The notes under the pieces are model-generated. The model made no database searches, was not told the origin of the DNA, and saw only the letters and a list, made by a program, of their open reading frames with translations. Positions 1 to 46,752 of a stretch of DNA of 64,000 nt are shown piece after piece. The number at the start of each line of letters is the position of its first letter. Within the stretch, counting starts at the first letter, position 1. The translations under genes were made by a program, and so were the position numbers. The stretch is taken from the IMG/VR virus record IMGVR_UViG_3300046692_000130, positions 1-64,000 of that record. The stretch is one strand, 5' to 3'. The DNA is from a virus.

Positions 1-322
1 GCCGTCCGTTATGTCTGGCGCGATCTCTGGCGCGTCTTTGTTTGCATCTATTGAAACGGTAAACGCATGCGAGACTTGCCCGTCAAGTAAAAACTTTGCT
101 GGCGCTGGCGTATATGCGTCGACGCTGGCCCGTTGCTGGCCCGTGTGGCGTCCGTGTGGCGTCCGTTATGCTCTGGCCCGTCCGTCTACGCTGGCGCGTC
201 TCTGGCCCGTTGTGGCGATCTCTGGCCCGTTGCTCTGGCCGTTGCTTGGCGCTGGCGCTGGCGCTGGCCGTCGACGCTGGCCCGTGTGGCGATCTCTAAA
301 GCGCTTGGCCGTTGCGCTGGCG
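1..322. repeat. Word-repeat mosaic, left arm
   Basis: This non-coding DNA is built almost entirely from short recurring words: CTGGCG, CTGGCCC, CTGGCCGTTG, GTGTGGCGTCCGT and GCGATCTCTGGC. By eye, CTGGC occurs about 18 times on the plus strand in positions 1-420 and GCCAG only once. The words are irregularly joined, so this is not a simple tandem repeat. Long open frames across it encode only Ala/Arg/Leu/Trp-rich repeats and are not credible genes. The same words recur in opposite orientation at 3.05-3.77 kb. Function unknown. Confidence 0.75.
11..121 (+). pseudogene. Fragment resembling the N-terminus of the 400-1092 gene
   Basis: The plus-strand frame here reads ETCPSS, then F, G, G, Y and A in the same relative positions as residues 29-44 of the minus-strand protein at 400-1092 (ETCPSS..F.G.G.YA). 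The DNA shares the 14-mer GAGACTTGCCCGTC. Two of the three cysteines are lost and the frame then runs into word-repeat DNA. I read it as a decayed, inverted partial copy. The match is short, so chance combined with regional word bias remains possible. Confidence 0.35.
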
Positions 323-360
323 CTGGCGCGATCTCTGCCACAAAGTAAAACGGCCAGACT
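323..360. repeat. 38-bp direct repeat, copy 1 (copy 2 at 1417-1454)
   Basis: An identical 38-bp sequence occurs at 323-360 and 1417-1454. It contains the word GCGCGATCTCTG and runs into the left half of a terminator hairpin in both places. The two copies sit downstream of the two minus-strand transcription units in this region, so it looks like a duplicated unit end. Confidence 0.85.
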
Positions 361-375
361 CTAAAGTCTGACCGT
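341..375 (-). terminator. Intrinsic terminator after the 400-1092 gene
   Basis: An 11-bp stem with one mismatch pairs 350-360 with 365-375 across a 4-nt loop. On the minus strand it is followed by TTTTACTTT. It lies 25 bp past the stop of the minus-strand gene ending at 400. Confidence 0.7.
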
Positions 376-399
376 GTAACCGTGTGATGTTCTGGCGCG

Positions 400-1092
400 C
401 TATTGAATGACGTTTAGAAGCGCTTTATTTGCCTTTTTCACTCCACTGCCATGTGTTGCAAAAGCGATTACAGCGCCAGTATCGCGCAAACGGTCAGCAT
501 TCATGCAAAGCTTGCATGATAGGCAATTTGCAGCTTTGCCCGTTTGTTGTGGGCAAGGAATTACCCTTACTCCGTCGACAACTTTAGCGCTGGCCGTATC
601 GTGATATTCGACAACAATAGCAGCGCCAAAACCCTTTGCCATGGCGTCTTTTGTATCGGCGATAGTCTCGCAAGATGCAAGCACGGACACATCACGCCAT
701 GACTGGCGCGAAACATTACGCCATGCATGCGTGTAAGACCATACACTCTGGCCATGCTTGGCGCGATACTCTGACGCTGCAGCGCTAACCGTCGACGCGC
801 CAGCATCCGTTGTGCAATCTCCCACAACGTGTAGACGCAACGGACGGACGCCAGACAATTCACGGATTGCCAGCGCTTCGTTATCGGCCAGCGTCTGTAG
901 ACTCTGACCCTTTGCTGCAGTGTTGAGACGCTTTGTATGTATCGCCATAGGGCCAGACTCGGCGTAGCATCCTGACCCTTGAAACGGGCAACTAGACGGG
1001 CAAGTCTCTTGTGATGCATATGTGGCCGATACTTCACCAATTTTGATGTTGCCAGACTTCTCAATTGCCATAACTCCAATGTGCTTTGCCAT
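400..1092 (-). CDS. Cysteine-motif phage protein of unknown function (DUF7227-like)
   Basis: 230 aa. The N-terminus has C31-P-S-S-C35 followed by C42-Y-A-E and GPMAIHTKRLN. A second cysteine group, CLSCKLC, lies near residue 190. This pattern matches, from memory, a family of uncharacterised phage proteins (DUF7227); the cysteines suggest metal or Fe-S binding, which is inference. ATG start with GGAGAT 9 nt upstream, the same leader used by its neighbours. It is the last gene of a minus-strand unit starting near 1337 and is followed by a terminator. Its codons are rich in the local repeat words (GCCAG, CTGGC), in both orientations. Confidence 0.8.
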   Translation of the reverse strand: MAKHIGVMAIEKSGNIKIGEVSATYASQETCPSSCPFQGSGCYAESGPMAIHTKRLNTAAKGQSLQTLADNEALAIRELSGVRPLRLHVVGDCTTDAGASTVSAAASEYRAKHGQSVWSYTHAWRNVSRQSWRDVSVLASCETIADTKDAMAKGFGAAIVVEYHDTASAKVVDGVRVIPCPQQTGKAANCLSCKLCMNADRLRDTGAVIAFATHGSGVKKANKALLNVIQ

Positions 1093-1165
1093 GATTTTTT
1101 GATCTCCGTTTTTCTTGTTTTATAGTGCGTTTTTTGTTGTCTGTATCGTTTGAGATTGCAGCAAA

Positions 1166-1291
1166 TTACCGCGTCTTTGTGGGATAAACCATGTGGCAGA
1201 GTAGACGGGCCAGACCGTGCAAAATGACGTTGTGGAACATAGCAAAGATAATCATTCCGCTGCAGAATATCGGGCCAGCAAAGTTAGTCAT
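1166..1291 (-). CDS. Small hydrophobic protein, 41 aa
   Basis: The reading frame begins MTNFAGPIFCSGMIIF and is hydrophobic over residues 4-32, possibly one membrane segment. The start is supported by ACGGAGAT 9-10 nt upstream, the same leader box as the genes at 1092, 1798 and 2817. A promoter-like sequence (TTGACG, TATTTT) lies just upstream. No homolog recognised. The conserved leader is the main evidence that it is real. Confidence 0.5.
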   Translation of the reverse strand: MTNFAGPIFCSGMIIFAMFHNVILHGLARLLCHMVYPTKTR

Positions 1292-1331
1292 GCGCTTTTG
1301 ATCTCCGTTTCTTGAAATGTGTTGCATAAAC

Positions 1332-1362
1332 AAAATAGCACGTTTTCTAACTCATCCGTCAA
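1332..1362 (-). promoter_or_regulatory. Promoter and leader of the 1291-400 unit
   Basis: Minus strand TTGACG, 19 bp, TATTTT. The segment from the -35 box through GTGTTGCA to the ACGGAGAT ribosome-binding box is closely similar to the promoter and leader at 2858-2888, so the two units carry duplicated control regions. The 19-bp spacing is longer than the sigma70 optimum. Confidence 0.5.
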
Positions 1363-1416
1363 GAAAAATAATTGTCTTATTTTGCGCGATCTCTGGCGCG
1401 ATCTCTGGCCGTTGCT

Positions 1417-1469
1417 CTGGCGCGATCTCTGCCACAAAGTAAAACGGCCAGACTATAGCGTCTGACCGT
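1417..1469 (-). terminator. Terminator of the 2817-1523 unit, inside 38-bp repeat copy 2
   Basis: A 10-bp stem with one mismatch pairs 1444-1453 with 1460-1469 and is followed on the minus strand by TTTTACTTT. Positions 1417-1454 repeat 323-360 exactly. It lies 54 bp past the stop of the gene ending at 1523. Confidence 0.7.
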
Positions 1470-1522
1470 TGCGTCTAATGCCTATTCTTGGCCCGATACT
1501 GGCCCGTGTAGTGCTTGGCGCG

Positions 1523-1798
1523 CTAATCGTGAGTAATTACAGCATCTATGGCCCGTTGCATCGCATGGCGTCCGTGTGATGAAGGATAAAAGACGCCAAT
1601 CATGCGCGCTGGCGCATTGCGTCCGTCCGGTCTCAAAAAAGCTTTGTAAGGGTTTTCAGTGTCTGGCGTATCGTGGAATTTTTCGATGTGACCCAAAACG
1701 GCATTGCCTCTAAAAATAAGCCACACGTCAGACTCGGAACCTACACGCGCATCCTGCAGAACAACACGGACGCCAGATATTGTGTTTTCGTTTGCCAT
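1523..1798 (-). CDS. Hypothetical protein, 91 aa
   Basis: No family recognised. Soluble-looking mixed alpha/beta sequence with RVGSESDVWLIFRG and a basic C-terminal half (GRHAMQRAIDAV). ATG start with ACGGAGAT 9-10 nt upstream. The leader resembles that of the 1092 gene (GACAACAAAA before AAACGGAGAT). Second gene of the minus-strand unit starting at 2817 and followed by a terminator. Codon choice contains many copies of the local words. Confidence 0.7.
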   Translation of the reverse strand: MANENTISGVRVVLQDARVGSESDVWLIFRGNAVLGHIEKFHDTPDTENPYKAFLRPDGRNAPARMIGVFYPSSHGRHAMQRAIDAVITHD

Positions 1799-1851
1799 GG
1801 TAATAAATCTCCGTTTCCAATAGGTCTTTTGTTGTCGGTATAGGGTAAGAA

Positions 1852-2817
1852 TTACTGGCCAGCGCTGGCCCGTGTTACGCGTGTACCTGCAGCGCCGAGT
1901 CTAAAGCGCAATGGTTGCCCGTCTATTTTGTTCGGAACATACACTCTGGCCGAATTGCCTAGCAGGTACAAACGGCAATCTTCGAATCTAAAGACGTTGC
2001 CCGTTGCGTCCGTCCAATCCAAAACGATTCCGTCAAGCTGGCAATCTGTATCGTCTGGCGTCAGACCTAGCAAAGCACGGGCAGACGTTGCAGCATCGCG
2101 CTGGCGATCTAACTTAGCGGCCAGCGTCAGAGGATACGCTGCAATTGCCTTTTGACGGTCAGATTCTATTTGCTCTGGCGTGAATACAAGCGAATTGCCT
2201 TTAGCGTCGACGCCAAGCGCTGGCGCGATCTCTGGCAAGTTGTGGCCGTTTCTGTTTTCTTGATTGTGCAAAATGCTGTACGGAATGCCCGAGTTATTCG
2301 CAATGATCATATTTTGCGAATGATCAAAAGCAACCTTTTGCTCTGACCGTTTCGCCATGCATACCATGCAAACTGGCGCATTGCGAACATATACGCGATG
2401 ATCTCCACACGTCGACGCGAAGCAATCGGAGCATGAATCTTTAGCGTCTTTGCATGGCACATCTGCAGTAGAGACCGGATGCGCGCATATGTGGCAATGG
2501 TTGGCCCGTTGCTCTGCCACATAATCCGCATAACCTTCTATCGCATGCATGGCGTGAACATCAGACATCCGCGTCTTAGCATCCGAGTTATAGAAACGGA
2601 CGGTAATGTTTCCGCGAGTGTCAGACGTTGCACGGGCAAAGATTCCACACGCCAAAACAGATTCAACACGGATTGTGTTGTAAGACCACGAAGGAACTGC
2701 AGGATTCTCTTTTGCAATCGTTTGGATTGCGCGCCAGATTGCCCGTCTAACCGTTTCAAGTTTGCTTTGTGCATCCGTTGCGATCTCAATTACCGTGTAT
2801 TCGATTTTGCTTGCCAT
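1852..2817 (-). CDS. Hypothetical protein with a cysteine/histidine-rich middle, 321 aa
   Basis: Start chosen at the ATG giving MASKIEYTVIE, because ACGGAGAT lies 10 nt before it; a longer frame back to 2871 would run into the promoter. Residues of about 115-165 are rich in Cys and His (HCHICAH, CKDAKDSCSDCF, CGDH, CMVCMA) and look like a zinc-binding module. The N-terminal part may be helical and the C-terminal part beta-rich. No homolog recognised. First gene of a unit with its own promoter; repeat words are frequent within the coding sequence. Confidence 0.75.
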   Translation of the reverse strand: MASKIEYTVIEIATDAQSKLETVRRAIWRAIQTIAKENPAVPSWSYNTIRVESVLACGIFARATSDTRGNITVRFYNSDAKTRMSDVHAMHAIEGYADYVAEQRANHCHICAHPVSTADVPCKDAKDSCSDCFASTCGDHRVYVRNAPVCMVCMAKRSEQKVAFDHSQNMIIANNSGIPYSILHNQENRNGHNLPEIAPALGVDAKGNSLVFTPEQIESDRQKAIAAYPLTLAAKLDRQRDAATSARALLGLTPDDTDCQLDGIVLDWTDATGNVFRFEDCRLYLLGNSARVYVPNKIDGQPLRFRLGAAGTRVTRASAGQ

Positions 2818-2857
2818 GGTCTCTAATCTCCGTTTTTGTTTTATGTGTTGCACATCC

Positions 2858-2902
2858 AAAATAGCATGCAATCTAACGTATCCGTCAATTTATTTTCTGA
2901 CG
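2858..2902 (-). promoter_or_regulatory. Promoter with CGTCA-N10-TGACG inverted repeat
   Basis: Minus strand TTGACG (2883-2888), 19 bp, TATTTT (2858-2863), serving the gene starting at 2817. The -35 box lies in the inverted repeat CCGTCA-N10-TGACGG. The 20-bp block at 2883-2902 recurs exactly at 3261-3280, as expected of a regulator-binding site. Confidence 0.5.
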
Positions 2903-3050
2903 GTATTACGTCAAGCATTCAAATTGAATGATTTTGATCTCATCTATATATAGCGAAAAAAAATCTCATGCGATACATGTTTACTAAATAGTAAAAATAT
3001 AGGCATTTTTAGTGAGTTTTCCACAAGCAATTAAACGCTATTAGAGACGC
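2903..3050. other. AT-rich core with palindromes; candidate replication origin
   Basis: No gene seen. Contains ATTCAA-A-TTGAAT (2917-2929), CTATATATAG, an A-run, TTTACTA-AA-TAGTAAA (2980-2995) and TTTTCCACA (3017-3025), one mismatch from a DnaA box. Non-coding repeat words point outward from this segment on both sides. That arrangement resembles an origin with polar flanking motifs, but no iteron array is visible and the call is inference. Confidence 0.35.
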
Positions 3051-3770
3051 CACACGGACGCGGATGTCTGACCGTGTAGGGTAGGACGTTTCTTTTAGTC
3101 GACGTCTGTACGGGCCAGCAAACGGCCACAGCGTTTAAATTCGTTTTCGCTTTTCATACGCTTTTGACCTATTTTTCCTATTCGCCAGATTAGCTTTTGT
3201 GTCAATAGCTTTTTTTGAGACTCACGGAAAAAAGTTACAGTCAAGAAAAAAGTATGATTGCGTCAATTTATTTTCTGACGCGCCAGACGGACGGCCACAC
3301 GTCGACGCCAGAGCAACGGCCAGCGCCAGACGCCAGCGCGCATGTATGCACGGACACGGACGGGCCAGACCGTACCCTATACGCGCCAGAGATCGCGCAA
3401 CGGACAACGGCCAGACCATTAGGACAACGGACGGCCAGACGGACAACGGCCAGCGCCAGACGTCGACGCGCCAAGCGATACAGACGGGCCAGTCTCGGGC
3501 CAGAGATCGCGCAACGGTCAGACGGCCAGAGCATGGCAACGGACGCCACACGGGCCAGTATGCGCGCCAGAGTACAGACGCCAGACACGGGCCAGCGCCA
3601 GAGTATGTAGACGTCAGACGGACGGGCCAGACCATGTGGCAGAGATCGCGCAACGGCCAGCGCGCCAGCATAGATAGAAGGTACGTATAGACGGACGGAC
3701 ACGGGCCAGCATACGGGCCAGATACAGACATAGTAGAAGGTGAGATATCAGACCATGGCGTCTATGCACG
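3051..3770. repeat. Word-repeat mosaic, right arm (inverted orientation)
   Basis: Non-coding. GCCAG occurs about 26 times on the plus strand and CTGGC not at all by eye. Words include ACGGGCCAGA, ACGGCCAG, CGCCAGA, GTCGAC and GAGATCGCGCAACGG (near 3390, 3503 and 3641). Several overlapping open frames exist on both strands, but they encode low-complexity Arg/Gln/Thr or Ala/Arg/Leu/Trp text and lack convincing starts. A second copy of the CGTCA-N10-TGACG block lies at 3261-3280. Confidence 0.75.
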
Positions 3771-4061
3771 GTCTTAGATAGGCAAAGTCTTTGCTTTGCT
3801 TAGACTTAGCACGGGCCAAGCATGGCCAAGCATACGCCAAGCACAACCTAAGTTATTGATTCTATTAGAGACCACGGCAATCCACGAAAGACTTCGTAGA
3901 TAGACGCCTATTAGATTCAATGACATACGGGCAAGCGCTTTGTAACCTATTGAATTCATTACGTTTGAATCTACGAACTTCATCGTACGAACATCATCGT
4001 AGGCTAAGTTGTTCATTTTGAATGAGATAGCGGGGGTGGGTTCAAAATCGCATTATCAGAC
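3771..4061. other. Non-coding stretch; nothing firm
   Basis: The word content fades here (GGCCAAGC variants up to about 3845) into ordinary sequence. An open frame of 80 codons on the minus strand (4016 to 3774) has no ribosome-binding site I trust and its C-terminus is repeat words. I see no RNA gene or terminator. Confidence 0.4.
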
Positions 4062-10005: not shown

Positions 10006-10527
10006 TTATGACTGTGTTGCTTCAGTGCTCTCTTCGGCGACAGTCTCCACGACTACAGCCTCAGCCACTACAGACTTGGCGGTCGTGCCGGTGGATCCGA
10101 ATCCATTCGTGCCACGCGCAGTCGCTTCGAAGCCCTCAACCACAGAGATGTCGTCAGTCGCCAACACAGGTGTCGGTACGATCTGCGCGAACTTCTGCCC
10201 AGCCTTCAAAAGCTTCGGATGCGGGTACCCGGCCTGAAGCGTCAGCATCACGACGACCTCACCACGATAGCCACTATCGACCACGCGACCGACAGTGGAC
10301 ACACCCTGCTCTGCCATGGAAGAGCGGTCGTTGACCTTGAAGCCCAGTGGGTTGCCATCCTTGTCAGTACCCTTGATGGCGATGCCAGTGCGAACCTTAT
10401 TCACGACATTCAAATACAGCGGAGTCTCCTCCAGCGCGAACAAGTCGTAGCCGAGATCTCCTTCCTTACCAAGCTCGGGCAGCTTCGCGCCCTCTTCTAA
10501 CAGCTTCACTTCTAACTTCAAAATCAT
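10006..10527 (-). CDS. dut: dUTP diphosphatase
   Basis: 173 aa, trimeric dUTPase type. Five motifs are present: GDLGYDLFA, NDRSSMAEQG, GRVVDSGYRGEVVV, KAGQKFAQIVP and RGTNGFGSTG. It hydrolyses dUTP to dUMP and diphosphate, keeping uracil out of phage DNA and supplying dUMP to the ThyX encoded at 50.7-51.6 kb. An extra acidic tail of about 25 residues follows motif 5. Downstream of the polymerase and HNH genes on the same strand; GGAGC precedes the ATG. Confidence 0.92.
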   Translation of the reverse strand: MILKLEVKLLEEGAKLPELGKEGDLGYDLFALEETPLYLNVVNKVRTGIAIKGTDKDGNPLGFKVNDRSSMAEQGVSTVGRVVDSGYRGEVVVMLTLQAGYPHPKLLKAGQKFAQIVPTPVLATDDISVVEGFEATARGTNGFGSTGTTAKSVVAEAVVVETVAEESTEATQS

Positions 10528-10539
10528 TGCTCCTTTTGG

Positions 10540-11061
10540 TTATGCTGCGTTGATGTTCTTCCATGTTCGTCGCATGACGACGTTGTAAATGGAGGCTGTG
10601 GTAACGCCATACTCACGGGCTAAAGCATCTTGATTTACGCCTAGTGCGAAACGTCTGCGTATTTCGATGACGTCATCGGCGTTAAGCTTGGCCAGTCTGC
10701 TTCGCTGAATGTTTATCGCGGCAGTGACCGGTTCCAGATGATCGGGATTTACGCAGAGTGTGTTCTTGCATAGATGATCGAGTTGAAGCTTTTTTGAGAG
10801 CTTCTTCTTGTACTTCTTGTAGATCACGCGATGCGCTGGTTGCTTATCGATCATGCCGTAGACGCCGTTGGTGCCTAGCACCCAGACCCAACATCTGGTG
10901 ACAGGATCCTTGACGTACATCTCGGATTCTTTCTTGCGTGTGTTGTGTCCGTGAATGAACCTGACCGGCTTGCCTTTGACGCGTCCCGCAGATAGCTTGG
11001 TGTGTGTTGCGAGGGGTGTTGGACGACCGCACCCACACTCGCAAAGTTTTACTTGCTCCAA
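10540..11061 (-). CDS. HNH endonuclease with C-terminal HTH
   Basis: 173 aa. An N-terminal zinc-type segment (CECGCGRPT) is followed by an HNH core near residue 93 (LQLDHLCKNTLCVNPDHLEP), and then a C-terminal DNA-binding helix-turn-helix (ADDVIEIRRRFALGVNQ). This layout is typical of free-standing phage homing endonucleases. The TTG start overlaps the 3' end of the polymerase gene by 13 bases, consistent with insertion directly behind polA. Confidence 0.85.
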   Translation of the reverse strand: MEQVKLCECGCGRPTPLATHTKLSAGRVKGKPVRFIHGHNTRKKESEMYVKDPVTRCWVWVLGTNGVYGMIDKQPAHRVIYKKYKKKLSKKLQLDHLCKNTLCVNPDHLEPVTAAINIQRSRLAKLNADDVIEIRRRFALGVNQDALAREYGVTTASIYNVVMRRTWKNINAA

Positions 11062-13493
11062 TACTTAGAAATTGCTCCTTCCGATTCCATGGGGATAACA
11101 GTGACGAACTCGCCACCGCCGCGAATGATTGCGTCAGACACTTCGTCAGAAACCGCTTCACTGTGCTCTTCGGGACTCTCCGTCAATAATTCGTCGTAAA
11201 TGAATGAGAGCAACGAAGCACCGTACTTCGGCTCCAGAGTGTGCCAGAGATAAGGCTTGCCATTCGGGTCAAAGCCAGCCCCCATCGCAAGCTTCATCAT
11301 GTCGGCACCGGTTCCTTGGATCGCCATGTTGCCACCCTCACGCTTCACTGCAGCAATGAGTGAGTGGTACATCTGCATAGCCTTCTGCTGTGTGTAGTTC
11401 TTCTTGTGCTTGTTCATCGCAGCGGTCTTTGCTTGCTCATACGTGACCTGAGTGATCAAGCGCCGACGCCCAGAGAGCGTACGTGCCTCTCCGTTGTCGT
11501 ATGCATCATCGCGCAACATCTTCAACGTCTTCGAAGTCTGCGCGAACGTGCGGTGCCAGTTGTCGAGGAGTGCCTGAGCTTCTTCCTTCGAGATCTTCAA
11601 TTCGAGTGAAGTCGAGTAGGCTTGCTTATCATACGCAACACCGAAGTTGATGTTCTTCATCTTGTCGCGCTCTTTGCCGTGAGCAGGACACTTGCACTTC
11701 TGGTGATCGAGTGAGTAGTAGGCGCATGGCGGCAGAGTCTTCTGCTGGCCGTCGATAGTGACTGTGGTCGCTACCATCAGCGCAGCTTCGCGCCATGCCT
11801 TCTCGTTCAGCATCTCCGCTGAGATTGAGTGGACGTCCTGCCTCTTGTTGAAGGCCGCGATCCATGCTGGCTCTCGCGAGTACTGGACGAGGATCCGAAG
11901 CTCCTGACCAGAGCAGTCCTTGTCGACCATGTCGTAACCGGGCCGGGACTCGAAGCACATGCGATAGCGCTTGTCCTTTGGAAGATTCAGGATGTTGGGA
12001 TTGGTGGCAGACGGACGGCCAGTGTCAGTGCCAAGCTGGAGGAAGCGCGCATGTATGCGTCCTGTCTCTGGCGTGACAAAGCCGAACTTCTTCTTCTTGC
12101 CCTCGCCGACCTTCACATTGTTCGGTGAGATCCAGCGCAGACCGTACGTACCGATTGCCTTGTCGAGCGAACGCATCGTGCGTATGGCGTCGATGACAGG
12201 CTTCTCAGCATGCTTGTCGAGCATCTTGTCGTTCGTGCTCTTCAGGTTGGTCTTGTTCAGTCCGAACGGGCCTTTGTGAATTGCATCAAGCAACTGTGAC
12301 GGTGAGGCGTAGTTGATCGCAGCCTTACCACGCATGGTCGCGAGTTCTTCCATCGACCCCTTGTTGGCCTTCCTCGCTTCACGCTTCCACTCCTCGCTAA
12401 CGCGCTTCAACTGCACGTCACGCTCGGCCTGTGCAGACTTGCGCTCTTCTACCAACTGGGCGCGCCGTGCCTTCAACTCATTGACGCGGTCGATGGTTGC
12501 TTTCTTGGTACCCAACGACCGGATCTCGGCAGCGATGCTTTCGTATTCCTCGCCGTGCTCGACCTTCAGCGACAGAGCTTCCTTCTGCGCCTTGAGCCTT
12601 TCAATCAGGGCGTGGTCAGGTGGCTGCTTGAAGCCAACAATGGGCAGGAAGAACGAATCGAGACGGTCGATAGTCTCGTCCAGTTCCTTCTGGTTTGTGT
12701 CCATCAACGCCTTCCACTTTTCAGGGTTGACGTAGAGACCGTTGAGGTACATGTCACCGAAGGCAGGGATGGCGTCGTGCTCGATCTTGAACACACGCTC
12801 AAGACCGCACTCTTTCGCGACGTCGATCTGCTTCTTCTGGATTGCGTACGGCAAACGACAGTCCAGCGCGCAATACGTGATCTGCTCATCTGTCAGTGGC
12901 GTCTCCAGATCGAAGCTGGTCTGCAGCGCCTTGTCGATGCTGCGCTTGTAGTACCGGCGCATCAGGTCGCCCATGCCATAGAAGCCCTTCTGCATGGCTG
13001 GTACCTGACCGTTGTAGATCAGGCGTTCAGAGATCTGGGTGCAGTACAGATTCCAGATCCGCATGCCGAGGCACCACTTGGAGACGACGTATTCGAACTC
13101 CAGATTGTGGCCCAGCTTGTAGTGCGAGTTGGATTGCAGTGAAGGCCCGACCACGTTGATCACTGGATCGAGCATGGCAAGGAATTTGTCTGAAACGGCA
13201 GGACTGCGTCTGTATAGTCCTTGTGCCGCGATCAAGTTCTCTTTGGTCTCACAGAACGCCAGCAGATCGATGACGTACTGCTCGTCCTTGTTGCCAAGCT
13301 GCAGGGTACGGGCGCGCCGGTGGTAGAAACCTTCCACCATGTTTGTTTCGTAGTCAAAGGCGTAGTCGGTTACGCGGGTGAGAAAACGGCCAACCTTGTC
13401 CAGACCAGCGCCGTCCACTACCAGCGTTGGGTTGAGTTTTGGATTGAGGGTTGAAAGATCAAGAGGGGGTACTACGGGGTACTGGATCGTCAT
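11049..13493 (-). CDS. polA: Family A DNA polymerase with 3'-5' exonuclease domain
   Basis: 814 aa. The N-terminal DnaQ-like exonuclease has FDYETN near residue 48 and YCALDCRLPYA near 205. The polymerase domain has motif A VDKDCSGQELR (about 525), motif B KMKNINFGVAYDK (about 617) and motif C IYDELL (about 765). There is no 5' nuclease domain, as in T7-like phage enzymes. Motif A has CSGQ where YSQI is usual, and motif C has Tyr-Asp-Glu in place of His-Asp-Glu. A long charged helical segment precedes the palm, and a Cys/His cluster (CAYYSLDHQKCKCPAHG) lies before motif B. Its promoter leaves only about five bases of leader. Confidence 0.93.
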   Translation of the reverse strand: MTIQYPVVPPLDLSTLNPKLNPTLVVDGAGLDKVGRFLTRVTDYAFDYETNMVEGFYHRRARTLQLGNKDEQYVIDLLAFCETKENLIAAQGLYRRSPAVSDKFLAMLDPVINVVGPSLQSNSHYKLGHNLEFEYVVSKWCLGMRIWNLYCTQISERLIYNGQVPAMQKGFYGMGDLMRRYYKRSIDKALQTSFDLETPLTDEQITYCALDCRLPYAIQKKQIDVAKECGLERVFKIEHDAIPAFGDMYLNGLYVNPEKWKALMDTNQKELDETIDRLDSFFLPIVGFKQPPDHALIERLKAQKEALSLKVEHGEEYESIAAEIRSLGTKKATIDRVNELKARRAQLVEERKSAQAERDVQLKRVSEEWKREARKANKGSMEELATMRGKAAINYASPSQLLDAIHKGPFGLNKTNLKSTNDKMLDKHAEKPVIDAIRTMRSLDKAIGTYGLRWISPNNVKVGEGKKKKFGFVTPETGRIHARFLQLGTDTGRPSATNPNILNLPKDKRYRMCFESRPGYDMVDKDCSGQELRILVQYSREPAWIAAFNKRQDVHSISAEMLNEKAWREAALMVATTVTIDGQQKTLPPCAYYSLDHQKCKCPAHGKERDKMKNINFGVAYDKQAYSTSLELKISKEEAQALLDNWHRTFAQTSKTLKMLRDDAYDNGEARTLSGRRRLITQVTYEQAKTAAMNKHKKNYTQQKAMQMYHSLIAAVKREGGNMAIQGTGADMMKLAMGAGFDPNGKPYLWHTLEPKYGASLLSFIYDELLTESPEEHSEAVSDEVSDAIIRGGGEFVTVIPMESEGAISKYWSK

Positions 13494-45540: not shown

Positions 45541-46752
45541 ATGACCAGAGCACGATTCCAAGAAGGATCGCTCCAGATCAAGGGCAAGGGCGCGAAGGCT
45601 GAGTACTTCACGCGGATCCGTGTCTATGACGACATAACTGGGAAGTCCACCCAGCCACGCATCTCGCTCGGCCTCGTCTCCAAGATGAGCAAGCGCGAAG
45701 CCCTGAAGAAGAGGGCAGAGATCATCGGAGAACGTCTTCACCAGTTGCCGAAGTCTGCGCCGACTGCCTCCATGCGTGGATCCACCACACTTGAGAACTT
45801 CTACCGTGAGCGCTTCCTGATCATGAAGTCTCATTGGAGCCAAGCCCAGCGCGACAGCTTCGCATACATCATGGACAGCTTCGTCCTGCCCCGGTTCGGC
45901 AAGTATGCCATCAGCGACATCGACAAGGTTCTGGTGCAGAGTCTTCTCAACTCTCTTGAGGAAAAGTACAGCAAGAGCACACTGACCCACGTACGCACCA
46001 AGATGGTCGAAGTCTTCGAAGAGGCTGTCGAGCAGGACTACGCAGTAAAGAACCCCGCCGCGAAGACCAAGATCCCGGCTGGAGCGCGCCTACCAGAGCG
46101 GCCCGTCCTGACGTCTGAATGGCTCATGCAGATCATCGCCAAGGTCACCGACGCCCGGGACAAGGCAGTGTTCATGGTGGCCACCTTCTGCGCCCTACGT
46201 ACCAGTGAGGCGTTCGGTCTTCCATGGGGCAACTTCCACCACGATGAAGCGACCGGCACCGGCTGGTTCCTGATCGACCAGATCGCGTACCGAGGCAAGC
46301 GCTACAAGCGCACCAAGAACGACGCCAGCAAGGCCCGGGTGCATATCAGCAAGAAGACGCTGGCGGCAATCCTCCAGTGGCAGAAGGAGTGCAAAGACAC
46401 GAGTCCTGACGCTCTGATGTTCCCCAGCACGAACAAGAATGGCCGGTCGAAGAAAGGCGCGCCTATGTACCCACCTACGTGGCTCCAGAAGCGCCTACAA
46501 CCGATTGCTGACTCTCTGGGTATCCCATTCAAGGTCAACTTCAGGGCGACCCGTAGGACGGCCATTACGCTGGTACAGGAGCAAGGATCCTCACTGGCTT
46601 CGGCTCAGGGTATGGCTCGGCATGCATCGCCCAAGTCGACGTCCGAGATCTACACACAGATCGTGCCAGAGAACGTGAAGAAGGCAGTCAACGACTATGA
46701 AGAGATGGTGTTTGCTGCGAAGCCTAAAGCCAAACTCACCCGAGTGAAATAG
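45541..46752 (+). CDS. int: Tyrosine integrase
   Basis: 403 aa. N-terminal arm-binding segment (IRVYDDITGKSTQPRISLGL), SAM-like core-binding domain (TTLENFYRERFLIMKSHWSQ) and catalytic domain. Catalytic residues: Arg in CALRTSEAFGL near 219, RATRRT near 336-341 where the usual HxxR His is replaced by Arg, His in ARHASPKST near 360, Tyr in EIYTQIV near 370. Integrates the phage at a site likely related to tRNA-Val next to it. Followed by a terminator. Confidence 0.92.
   Translation: MTRARFQEGSLQIKGKGAKAEYFTRIRVYDDITGKSTQPRISLGLVSKMSKREALKKRAEIIGERLHQLPKSAPTASMRGSTTLENFYRERFLIMKSHWSQAQRDSFAYIMDSFVLPRFGKYAISDIDKVLVQSLLNSLEEKYSKSTLTHVRTKMVEVFEEAVEQDYAVKNPAAKTKIPAGARLPERPVLTSEWLMQIIAKVTDARDKAVFMVATFCALRTSEAFGLPWGNFHHDEATGTGWFLIDQIAYRGKRYKRTKNDASKARVHISKKTLAAILQWQKECKDTSPDALMFPSTNKNGRSKKGAPMYPPTWLQKRLQPIADSLGIPFKVNFRATRRTAITLVQEQGSSLASAQGMARHASPKSTSEIYTQIVPENVKKAVNDYEEMVFAAKPKAKLTRVK

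Follow-up and report, generated by a model that had tools for sequence, protein, structure and literature searches.

A 4.2-kb island of densely recurring short words in a circular phage genome

The window analysed comprised 64,000 nucleotides, positions 1 to 64,000 of the IMG/VR virus record IMGVR_UViG_3300046692_000130. The contig end (94,365-94,594) repeats positions 1-230 with one mismatch; the phage genome of 94,364 b is therefore circular, and the mosaic of short words at the start of the window continues across the contig end to about 94,018. The resulting word island (about 94,018-94,364 plus 1-3,850) has a total length of 4.2 kb. The first-pass annotation had placed the feature in 1-3,770, where the words are indeed dense, but they are not limited to that stretch. 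Both the crossing of the contig ends and the foreign composition of the segment (see below) were missed at that stage.

The island carries two small transcription units, g3-g2 (unit A) and gs-g1 (unit B). Three long minus-strand genes pervaded by the words had been described before; the words do pervade the minus-strand genes, but the gene count is four. The ORFs g3 (1855-2817, minus strand, 321 aa, with a Cys-rich stretch), g2 (1523-1798, minus strand, 91 aa) and gs (1166-1291, minus strand, 41 aa, carrying the shared leader AAACGGAGAT) gave no hits in homologue searches. Single-sequence structure prediction of g3 was unusable (pLDDT 38). The product of g1 (400-1092, minus strand, 230 aa) is a DUF7227/GP88-family protein with profile matches to PF23872 (E 1.5e-33) and PF17338 (E 3.3e-6) and 60% identity to Tunturiibacter phages; its structure model was fair (pLDDT 80) and gave just weak TIM-barrel-type matches. 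No Rep or Par homologue was found in the cassette.

Both units have matching promoter, leader and terminator modules that were not seen elsewhere in the genome. The promoter-like module of unit A (2858-2888, minus strand) consists of TTGACGGAT ... TGCTATTTT, and that of unit B (1332-1362, minus strand) of the same two elements, followed by TGCAACACAT; the two modules align over 64 columns with 78% identity. The intrinsic-terminator-like hairpin of unit B (350-375, minus strand) is a near copy of the terminator-like hairpin of unit A (1443-1470, minus strand), and the 56 nt surrounding the latter are 93% identical to 320-375. A simple scan for terminator-like hairpins did not by itself detect more of them than in shuffled sequence; that a paired copy follows each unit is the better argument.

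The left word block (1-345, continuing at 94,018-94,364) is an untranslated spacer past the unit B terminator with CCAG-type words on the minus strand, and the right word block (3270-3770), also untranslated, has such words on the plus strand. In most 100-bp bins of the left block, 84-87% of the 8-mers recurred in the island (59% in the bin from 37), and over most of the right block 65-84% did so. A further word spacer lies between the units (1380-1440, minus strand) and holds four copies of the 12-mer GCGCGATCTCTG. The 20-nt element CGTCAATTTATTTTCTGACG, which has inverted ends, was found at 2883-2902 and as an exact second copy at 3261-3280, where the right word block starts.

The two blocks are written in opposite directions. 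Pairs of 9-mers within the left block were direct in 624 cases and inverted in 17, and 9-mer matches between the left and right blocks were inverted in 667 cases (75 expected) and direct in 21. Under a model of the right block the left block scored +0.57 bits/base, against -0.24 when reversed. Word direction was independent of transcription and switched at about 375, 1150-1200 and 2850-2900, as would be expected from inversions or from copying in either direction, and not from a transcript-level signal. A weak spacing of words at 11-13 bp was detected (lag 12, z 3.4, in the left block; lag 11, z 2.9, in the right), and there was no fixed spacing. The left block contains 9.4% T, without frame preference. 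Long open frames exist in the blocks, but GCCA words showed no frame preference in the left block, so that protein-coding repeats were rejected there, and just a mild one in the right block, where such repeats are unlikely. RNA folding of the blocks was not in excess (z +0.84 and -0.79), and an Rfam search gave no match.

The edges of the island are sharp, as judged from the share of recurring 8-mers per bin, and the abrupt stop of the vocabulary near 3.85 kb that had been noticed earlier was confirmed, as was its private character. At the right edge (3771-3857) the words fade, and ACTTAG/CTAAGT motifs resemble those of the left edge. Further out, GCTAAGTTGTTCATTTTGAATG (4003-4024, plus strand) is an imperfect direct copy of 93,806-93,827 beyond the left edge (19/22 identical), and this pair may be a faint trace of an insertion. 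A search of the edges for terminal inverted or target-site repeats yielded just this 22-nt direct match and an inverted one, both of them weak. The word island is real and foreign to the remaining genome; an assembly artefact is unlikely in view of the intact genes, the paired regulatory modules and the presence of a conserved phage gene.

Words were counted on both strands in 1-3,850 and in 3,851-64,000. ACGGGCCAG occurred 17 times in the former and once in the latter, AGAGATCGC 11 times and never, CGCGCCAGA nine times and once, and CAGAGATCGCGC nine times and never; GCCAGA was found 40 and 59 times, which corresponds to a 10-fold enrichment per base. The small recurring vocabulary that the first-pass annotation had recognised in the first 3.8 kb is borne out by these counts, except that GAGATCGCGCAACGG, named among its words, has just three occurrences. 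About 90 different 9-mers were distinguished, most of them not palindromic, and no single motif was prominent. Repeated 8-mers numbered 202-223 per kb at 1-1000, 3001-4000 and 93,501-94,500, compared to a genome median of 26 and to 43-60 (order 2) or 116-146 +/- 18-19 (order 3) in Markov controls. Identical 16-mer pairs numbered 145 in the island; the expectations were 0.4 (order 2), 15 (order 3) and 64 (order 4), and segments of 4.2 kb from elsewhere had 0.5. The excess of 8-mers and 16-mers is thus explained neither by base composition nor by the frequencies of di- to tetranucleotides; in the k-mer check with composition controls that had been proposed, the excess over order-2 and order-3 expectation remained.

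Word cover, expressed as 8-mer recurrence, was mostly 0.65-0.87 in spacers, 0.25-0.59 in genes and mostly 0.02-0.2 in the flanks, with a value of 0.13 in the promoter/AT-rich bin from 2937. About 85% of the spacer 8-mers were found again elsewhere in the island. TRF detected 16 arrays in the island (unit length 6-44 bp), compared to 13 in the remaining 90 kb; simulations at order 4 with matched composition gave 8.9 arrays, with a maximum of 13. The earlier statement that the repeats are not tandem holds insofar as they do not form a single tandem array, yet 16 local tandem duplications of short length are embedded among them.

The words also enter the genes, as had been claimed. In codon-preserving shuffles (1000 per gene), scored by the 10-mers common to gene and spacers, g3 had 66 shared 10-mers compared to 8.0 after shuffling, g1 51 compared to 6.4 and g2 23 compared to 2.2, and none of the 1000 shuffles was as high in any of the three; for gs, the values were 23 and 6.4, and 1 of 1000 shuffles was as high. 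Sharing with the spacers was far above the shuffles, and word content was strongest in g3. Gene words occurred in every frame, on both strands and with differing encoded residues, which places the repeats at the DNA level.

Codon usage distance was 0.25 for the cassette genes, compared to 0.05-0.14 for size-matched phage genes, and GC3 was 0.47 in the cassette versus 0.68. The segment is compositionally foreign and was probably acquired. A search of the top words in related genomes, which had also been proposed, found no dense vocabulary in the phage, plasmid, IMG/VR and GTDB collections. Distant blastn searches with 1-4000 gave just short matches in phages, all within the DUF7227 gene, and no matches in plasmids. 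A gapped pattern had three single matches in IMG/VR and a 17-mer 36 single matches in GTDB, none with dense vocabulary; an IMG/VR 14-mer scan gave, among the matches listed, single occurrences and no dense vocabulary. The densest database match in IMG/VR and GTDB had a maximum of 18 words per kb, compared to over 200 in the island. None of 396 genomes from the phylum group to which one Acidobacteria MAG belongs had a match; the chance expectation was <1, so this test addresses a word-rich host only. Searches with the promoter and terminator modules gave no matches, no relatives of the island were found in the collections searched, and relatives by major capsid protein reached 50% identity at most.

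Degenerate minisatellites and cryptic simple sequence contain short tandem duplications whose units vary widely in length, and they have low k-mer complexity. The island shares these embedded duplications and the low complexity but has no single unit or period, is repetitive largely in a dispersed manner on both strands, and includes genes. Head-to-tail copies of one unit, as in a tandem repeat or minisatellite, do not account for it, as the 16 short arrays have different units and most of the sequence is dispersed. It was correctly described as not CRISPR-like: the repeat families are short, degenerate and irregularly spaced, and near-identical repeats with constant spacers were not seen. A single regularly spaced motif adjoining rep or par genes, as in iterons or centromeres, was not found either, the signal at 11-13 bp being weak. 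The repeat layout is unlike the TR/VR pair of a diversity-generating retroelement.

Green-algal organelle genomes contain short palindromic repeats, known from the mtDNA and ptDNA of Volvox carteri (PMC2670323), and an error-prone repair model exists for them (PMC7043297). In these organelles, as in the island, spacers consist mostly of a few short repeat families, and the vocabulary differs from genome to genome; on the organelle side, fast indel turnover in spacers occurs beside slow coding DNA, and error-prone break repair or template switching is the proposed cause. The organelle repeats, however, are hairpin palindromes and are non-coding only, with one rRNA exception in mtDNA, whereas the island words are mostly non-palindromic, fold ordinarily and are present in g1, g2 and g3. 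HIP1 of cyanobacteria is one palindromic octamer, found about once per kb genome-wide and tied to DNA methyltransferases (PMC4390886). The island resembles HIP1 and alternative HIPs, for which a bias from methylation or repair was proposed (PMC4390886), in having short words far above expectation; it differs by about 90 mostly non-palindromic words that saturate just 4.2 kb, in place of a single genome-wide palindrome.

Comparable mosaics with other words are present in unrelated viral contigs from independent assemblies. Two near-identical IMG/VR viral contigs, L092 and L193, share 3,302 of 3,304 flanking bases, and their mosaic of GGCATGG/ATGGCGT words, aligned over about 326 bases, has 13 mismatches and 119 gap columns. 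This mosaic gains and loses multi-base tracts, whereas its flanks are static. A third IMG/VR contig (L151) has a mosaic of pentamer-like words. These contigs resemble the island in having dense recurring short words of a private vocabulary in a spacer, the character in which the island agrees with the hypervariable phage word mosaic of the L092/L193 type; they differ in extending over a few hundred bp, in spacers only as far as seen, and in using other words. Three further candidates were set aside on inspection: L071 with two pattern matches, L132 with 105/120-bp repeats at regular spacing that probably represent a protein repeat, and L138 with a 5-nt tandem array. We infer that the process seen in the L092/L193 pair also made the island, acting in or with an acquired cassette.

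The reading that we favour, at roughly even odds, is a hypervariable word mosaic on an acquired cassette, generated as short tracts are duplicated or deleted and templates are switched. The four-gene cassette would have been acquired horizontally, and its DNA would have been rewritten repeatedly as pieces of about 6-40 bp were duplicated in tandem nearby, deleted or copied, through slippage or template switching at microhomologies. Untranslated spacers would tolerate such events and become saturated with few words; words would be thinner in genes and promoters because selection removes most events there. The local force suspected in the first-pass annotation is supported by the sharp edges, the private vocabulary and gene words beyond codon controls, and among the three options offered there an unusual duplication process fits best, given the embedded tandem duplications with their many unit lengths and the way in which the L092/L193 mosaic gains and loses several bases at a time. 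Words beyond codon shuffles require such a process to write into genes as well. The near one-way words of each block are unexpected from random template switching alone; local tandem duplication or later inversion is needed too. A word model of order 4-5 reproduces most of the repeat spectrum, so a preference for certain 5-6-mers could also explain it.

A modification or recognition system, another of the options, is not supported, the words being many, mostly non-palindromic and without a single prominent motif. The vocabulary might instead be a dialect that pervades the genome of a donor, where a bias linked to methylation or repair would keep words frequent in genes and spacers; the island edges would be transfer boundaries. 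Foreign codon usage and regulatory modules, gene words in excess of codon shuffles, the sharp edges and the HIP1 precedent for genome-wide words (PMC4390886) point in this direction, but no donor was found in IMG/VR, GTDB or the 396 genomes mentioned above, words are far denser in spacers than in genes, and they are numerous and non-palindromic; this origin appears unlikely. Word-specific selection would make the blocks degenerate arrays of sites bound by a protein of partition, replication or the nucleoid (g3 being a candidate), with the gene words as extra sites. Two oppositely oriented blocks lie on either side of the operons, an arrangement also possible for iteron or centromere arrays, and the weak 11-13 bp spacing would fit. 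Nothing found requires it, however: there are about 90 distinct 9-mers instead of one motif, no fixed spacing, reading frame or consistent strand, no Par/Rep homologue in the cassette, and word direction flips within genes. Nor is the L092/L193 mosaic conserved between near-identical contigs. We regard such selection as quite improbable.

Transcription of the blocks as protein- or RNA-binding sponges would be consistent with a T-poor strand dense in short motifs. The blocks, however, sit past terminator-like hairpins or upstream of a promoter, word direction does not follow gene direction, and neither excess folding nor an Rfam match was obtained, which leaves an RNA-level element very improbable. 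An assembly or sequencing artefact might be suspected from the contig break inside the left block and the 230-base overlap with its mismatch; circular closure, intact genes including the conserved DUF7227 protein, matching regulatory modules and similar mosaics in independent assemblies make this scarcely credible.

Extending the favoured duplication process, we suggest tentatively, and with considerable doubt, that a still-active local process copies tracts of 6-40 bp, in either orientation, into genes and spacers, that synonymous and even amino-acid choices follow the private vocabulary, and that islands of this kind recur as hypervariable loci in unrelated viral contigs, every one with a vocabulary of its own. 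If so, some phages would possess islands in which the duplication and swapping of short tracts change the DNA far more quickly than in the flanks, with effects reaching into coding sequence, and would gain rapid local variation without retroelements or site-specific recombinases. Methods based on k-mers, such as host prediction, binning and transfer detection, can be misled by word islands.

The record is 94,594 bases long, the window covering its first 64,000, and its first 230 bases recur as its last 230 with one mismatch; judging from this terminal repeat, the genome is circular or permuted (approximately 94,364 bases). The word-rich segment placed at 1-3770 by the first-pass annotation was present, but its extent was incomplete since the contig ends cut through it. 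The island spans 4.2 kb, from approximately 94,018 across the join to approximately 3,850. Two untranslated word spacers belong to it, a left block (1-345 plus 94,018-94,364) and a right block (3270-3770). The sole mismatch of the end overlap (G/T, window 128 / record 94,492) lies inside the left block and is either a variant within the population or an assembly error. Clusters of CTAAGT/ACTTAG motifs, including a 22-nt imperfect direct repeat, lie at both edges of the island (record 93,806-94,024 and window 3,803-4,024); they may mark a past integration or sites for a protein. The tyrosine integrase gene (window 45,541-46,752) is located approximately 46 kb away, with no att site identified. 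Terminase, major capsid protein, tape measure, integrase, DNA polymerase A, a RecA/UvsX-like recombinase and nucleotide-metabolism genes are encoded elsewhere in the genome; a phage-borne nicotinate/nicotinamide phosphoribosyltransferase (L009:13,394-14,896, record approximately 77.4-78.9 kb) adjoins other nucleotide-metabolism genes.

The word excess claimed initially proved real, single words being 10- to more than 100-fold above the remaining window. Local 8-mer repetition in the spacers was approximately 8 times the genome median and exceeded order-2 and order-3 Markov controls. Identical 16-mer pairs numbered 145 in the island; order-3 simulations yielded 15, and 4.2 kb segments from elsewhere in the genome 0.5. 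To reproduce this repetition, the word model had to be of order 4-5; the grain of the vocabulary is therefore approximately 5-6 bases. CRISPR was rejected by repeat analysis and the island is not one tandem array, as had been noted from the sequence. No Rfam family was matched in the island, and RNA folding of its blocks gave no excess. A matching vocabulary was not found in the public collections searched, GTDB and IMG/VR being scanned with a few exact patterns, for one of the IMG/VR scans among the matches listed.

Of the 8-mers in the untranslated blocks, 65-87% recurred elsewhere in the island in most 100-bp bins, compared to 25-59% in its genes, 13% in the bin from 2937 and mostly 2-20% outside. 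Both blocks use one vocabulary on opposite strands: the model of one block gave the other +0.5 to +0.6 bits per base when read in the CCAG orientation and -0.2 when reversed (remaining genome: mean -0.62, maximum -0.23). The better-scoring strand was minus to approximately 375, plus to approximately 1150, minus to approximately 2850 and plus to approximately 3800, although every island gene is on the minus strand. The words had also been said to pervade the genes, and their 10-mers indeed exceeded codon-preserving shuffles (reached in 0/1000 for g1, g2 and g3, and 1/1000 for gs). Since they moreover occur in every reading frame and on either strand, they are repeats at the DNA level, not the protein level. 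Amino-acid identity of g1 to its Tunturi_1 homologue was 54% at word-covered (n=80) and 63% at uncovered codons (n=147), a small difference.

The genes form two minus-strand units. In unit A, a promoter-like module (2858-2888) precedes g3 (321 aa) and g2 (91 aa), with a terminator-like hairpin at 1443-1470; in unit B, the corresponding elements (1332-1362 and 350-375) accompany gs (41 aa) and g1 (230 aa). Promoter and leader modules of the units agree at 78% over 64 alignment columns, the terminators plus the words after them at 83% over 90, and the leader GACAACAAAA ... AAACGGAGAT is common to both second genes; none of these modules was found elsewhere in the genome. No relatives of g2, gs and g3 were detected. 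The g1 product is a DUF7227/GP88 protein with 59-60% identity to those of two phages of the acidobacterium Tunturiibacter, and this one protein match makes Acidobacteriota a possible host group. Island genes differ from the phage in GC3 (0.47 vs 0.68), Phe TTC (0.29 vs 0.87) and Gln CAG (0.30 vs 0.80), and their codon usage distance from it is 0.25, versus 0.05-0.14 for size-matched genes. On these grounds, the cassette of both units was most likely acquired.

Other viral contigs, obtained by chance, were compared as a small sample drawn via GC-rich pattern matches, which gives no frequency. Clear mosaics with different words were present in two, L092 (IMGVR_UViG_3300021139_000128; 10,410-10,735; GGCATGG, ATGGCGT, GCGTTACCGC) and L151 (IMGVR_UViG_3300042876_001031; 13,010-13,390), the latter a spacer 3' of a terminator-like hairpin with a private, pentamer-like vocabulary (CCTGC/CGTAC/CTAGC/CGAAC). 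A weaker case is the spacer L089:7,960-8,380 (IMGVR_UViG_3300034102_000748), with many words of the GTGGACAATGTG / TTGTCCACAT type in both orientations. A further scan yielded L193 (IMGVR_UViG_3300013093_004408), a near-identical relative of L092. Their mosaic, bounded by two direct repeats (TATTTAACATAATGTCGAAACTGTCACAAT), is rearranged between the two contigs: the flank has 2 differing sites in 3,304 bases without a gap, whereas the mosaic (approximately 326 bases) aligns with 210 matches, 13 mismatches and 119 gap columns, its words identical and their numbers and order different. With 2 differences, a repeat unit of 65 bases is conserved on the other side as well; unrelated sequence then replaces approximately 150 bases before identity resumes, so some differences there are not of the word kind. 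This pair shows directly that such a mosaic changes by gain, loss and replacement of tracts of several bases, and far more rapidly than the sequence to its left.

Short tandem duplications (units of 6 to 44 bp) numbered 16 in the island spacers; the remaining 90 kb contained 13, and order-4 simulations never gave more than 13. This excess, together with the L092/L193 analogue, favours formation of the island by short-tract duplication, deletion and template switching, with turnover in the island itself inferred by analogy. One hint of copying from gene to spacer comes from the 18 nt at 71-88, which match 991-1008 at 94%, where an invariant motif of g1 is encoded. Such events by themselves do not explain the single word direction within one block; local tandem duplication would give each block one direction, and an inversion would relate left to right. 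Because the public collections searched yielded no relative of the cassette, the main rival readings are both possible: a donor with genome-wide word bias as the source of the cassette, and selection for binding sites as the source of the words. Under the favoured short-tract duplication, deletion and template switching, the events would be tolerated by the spacers and partly purged from the genes.
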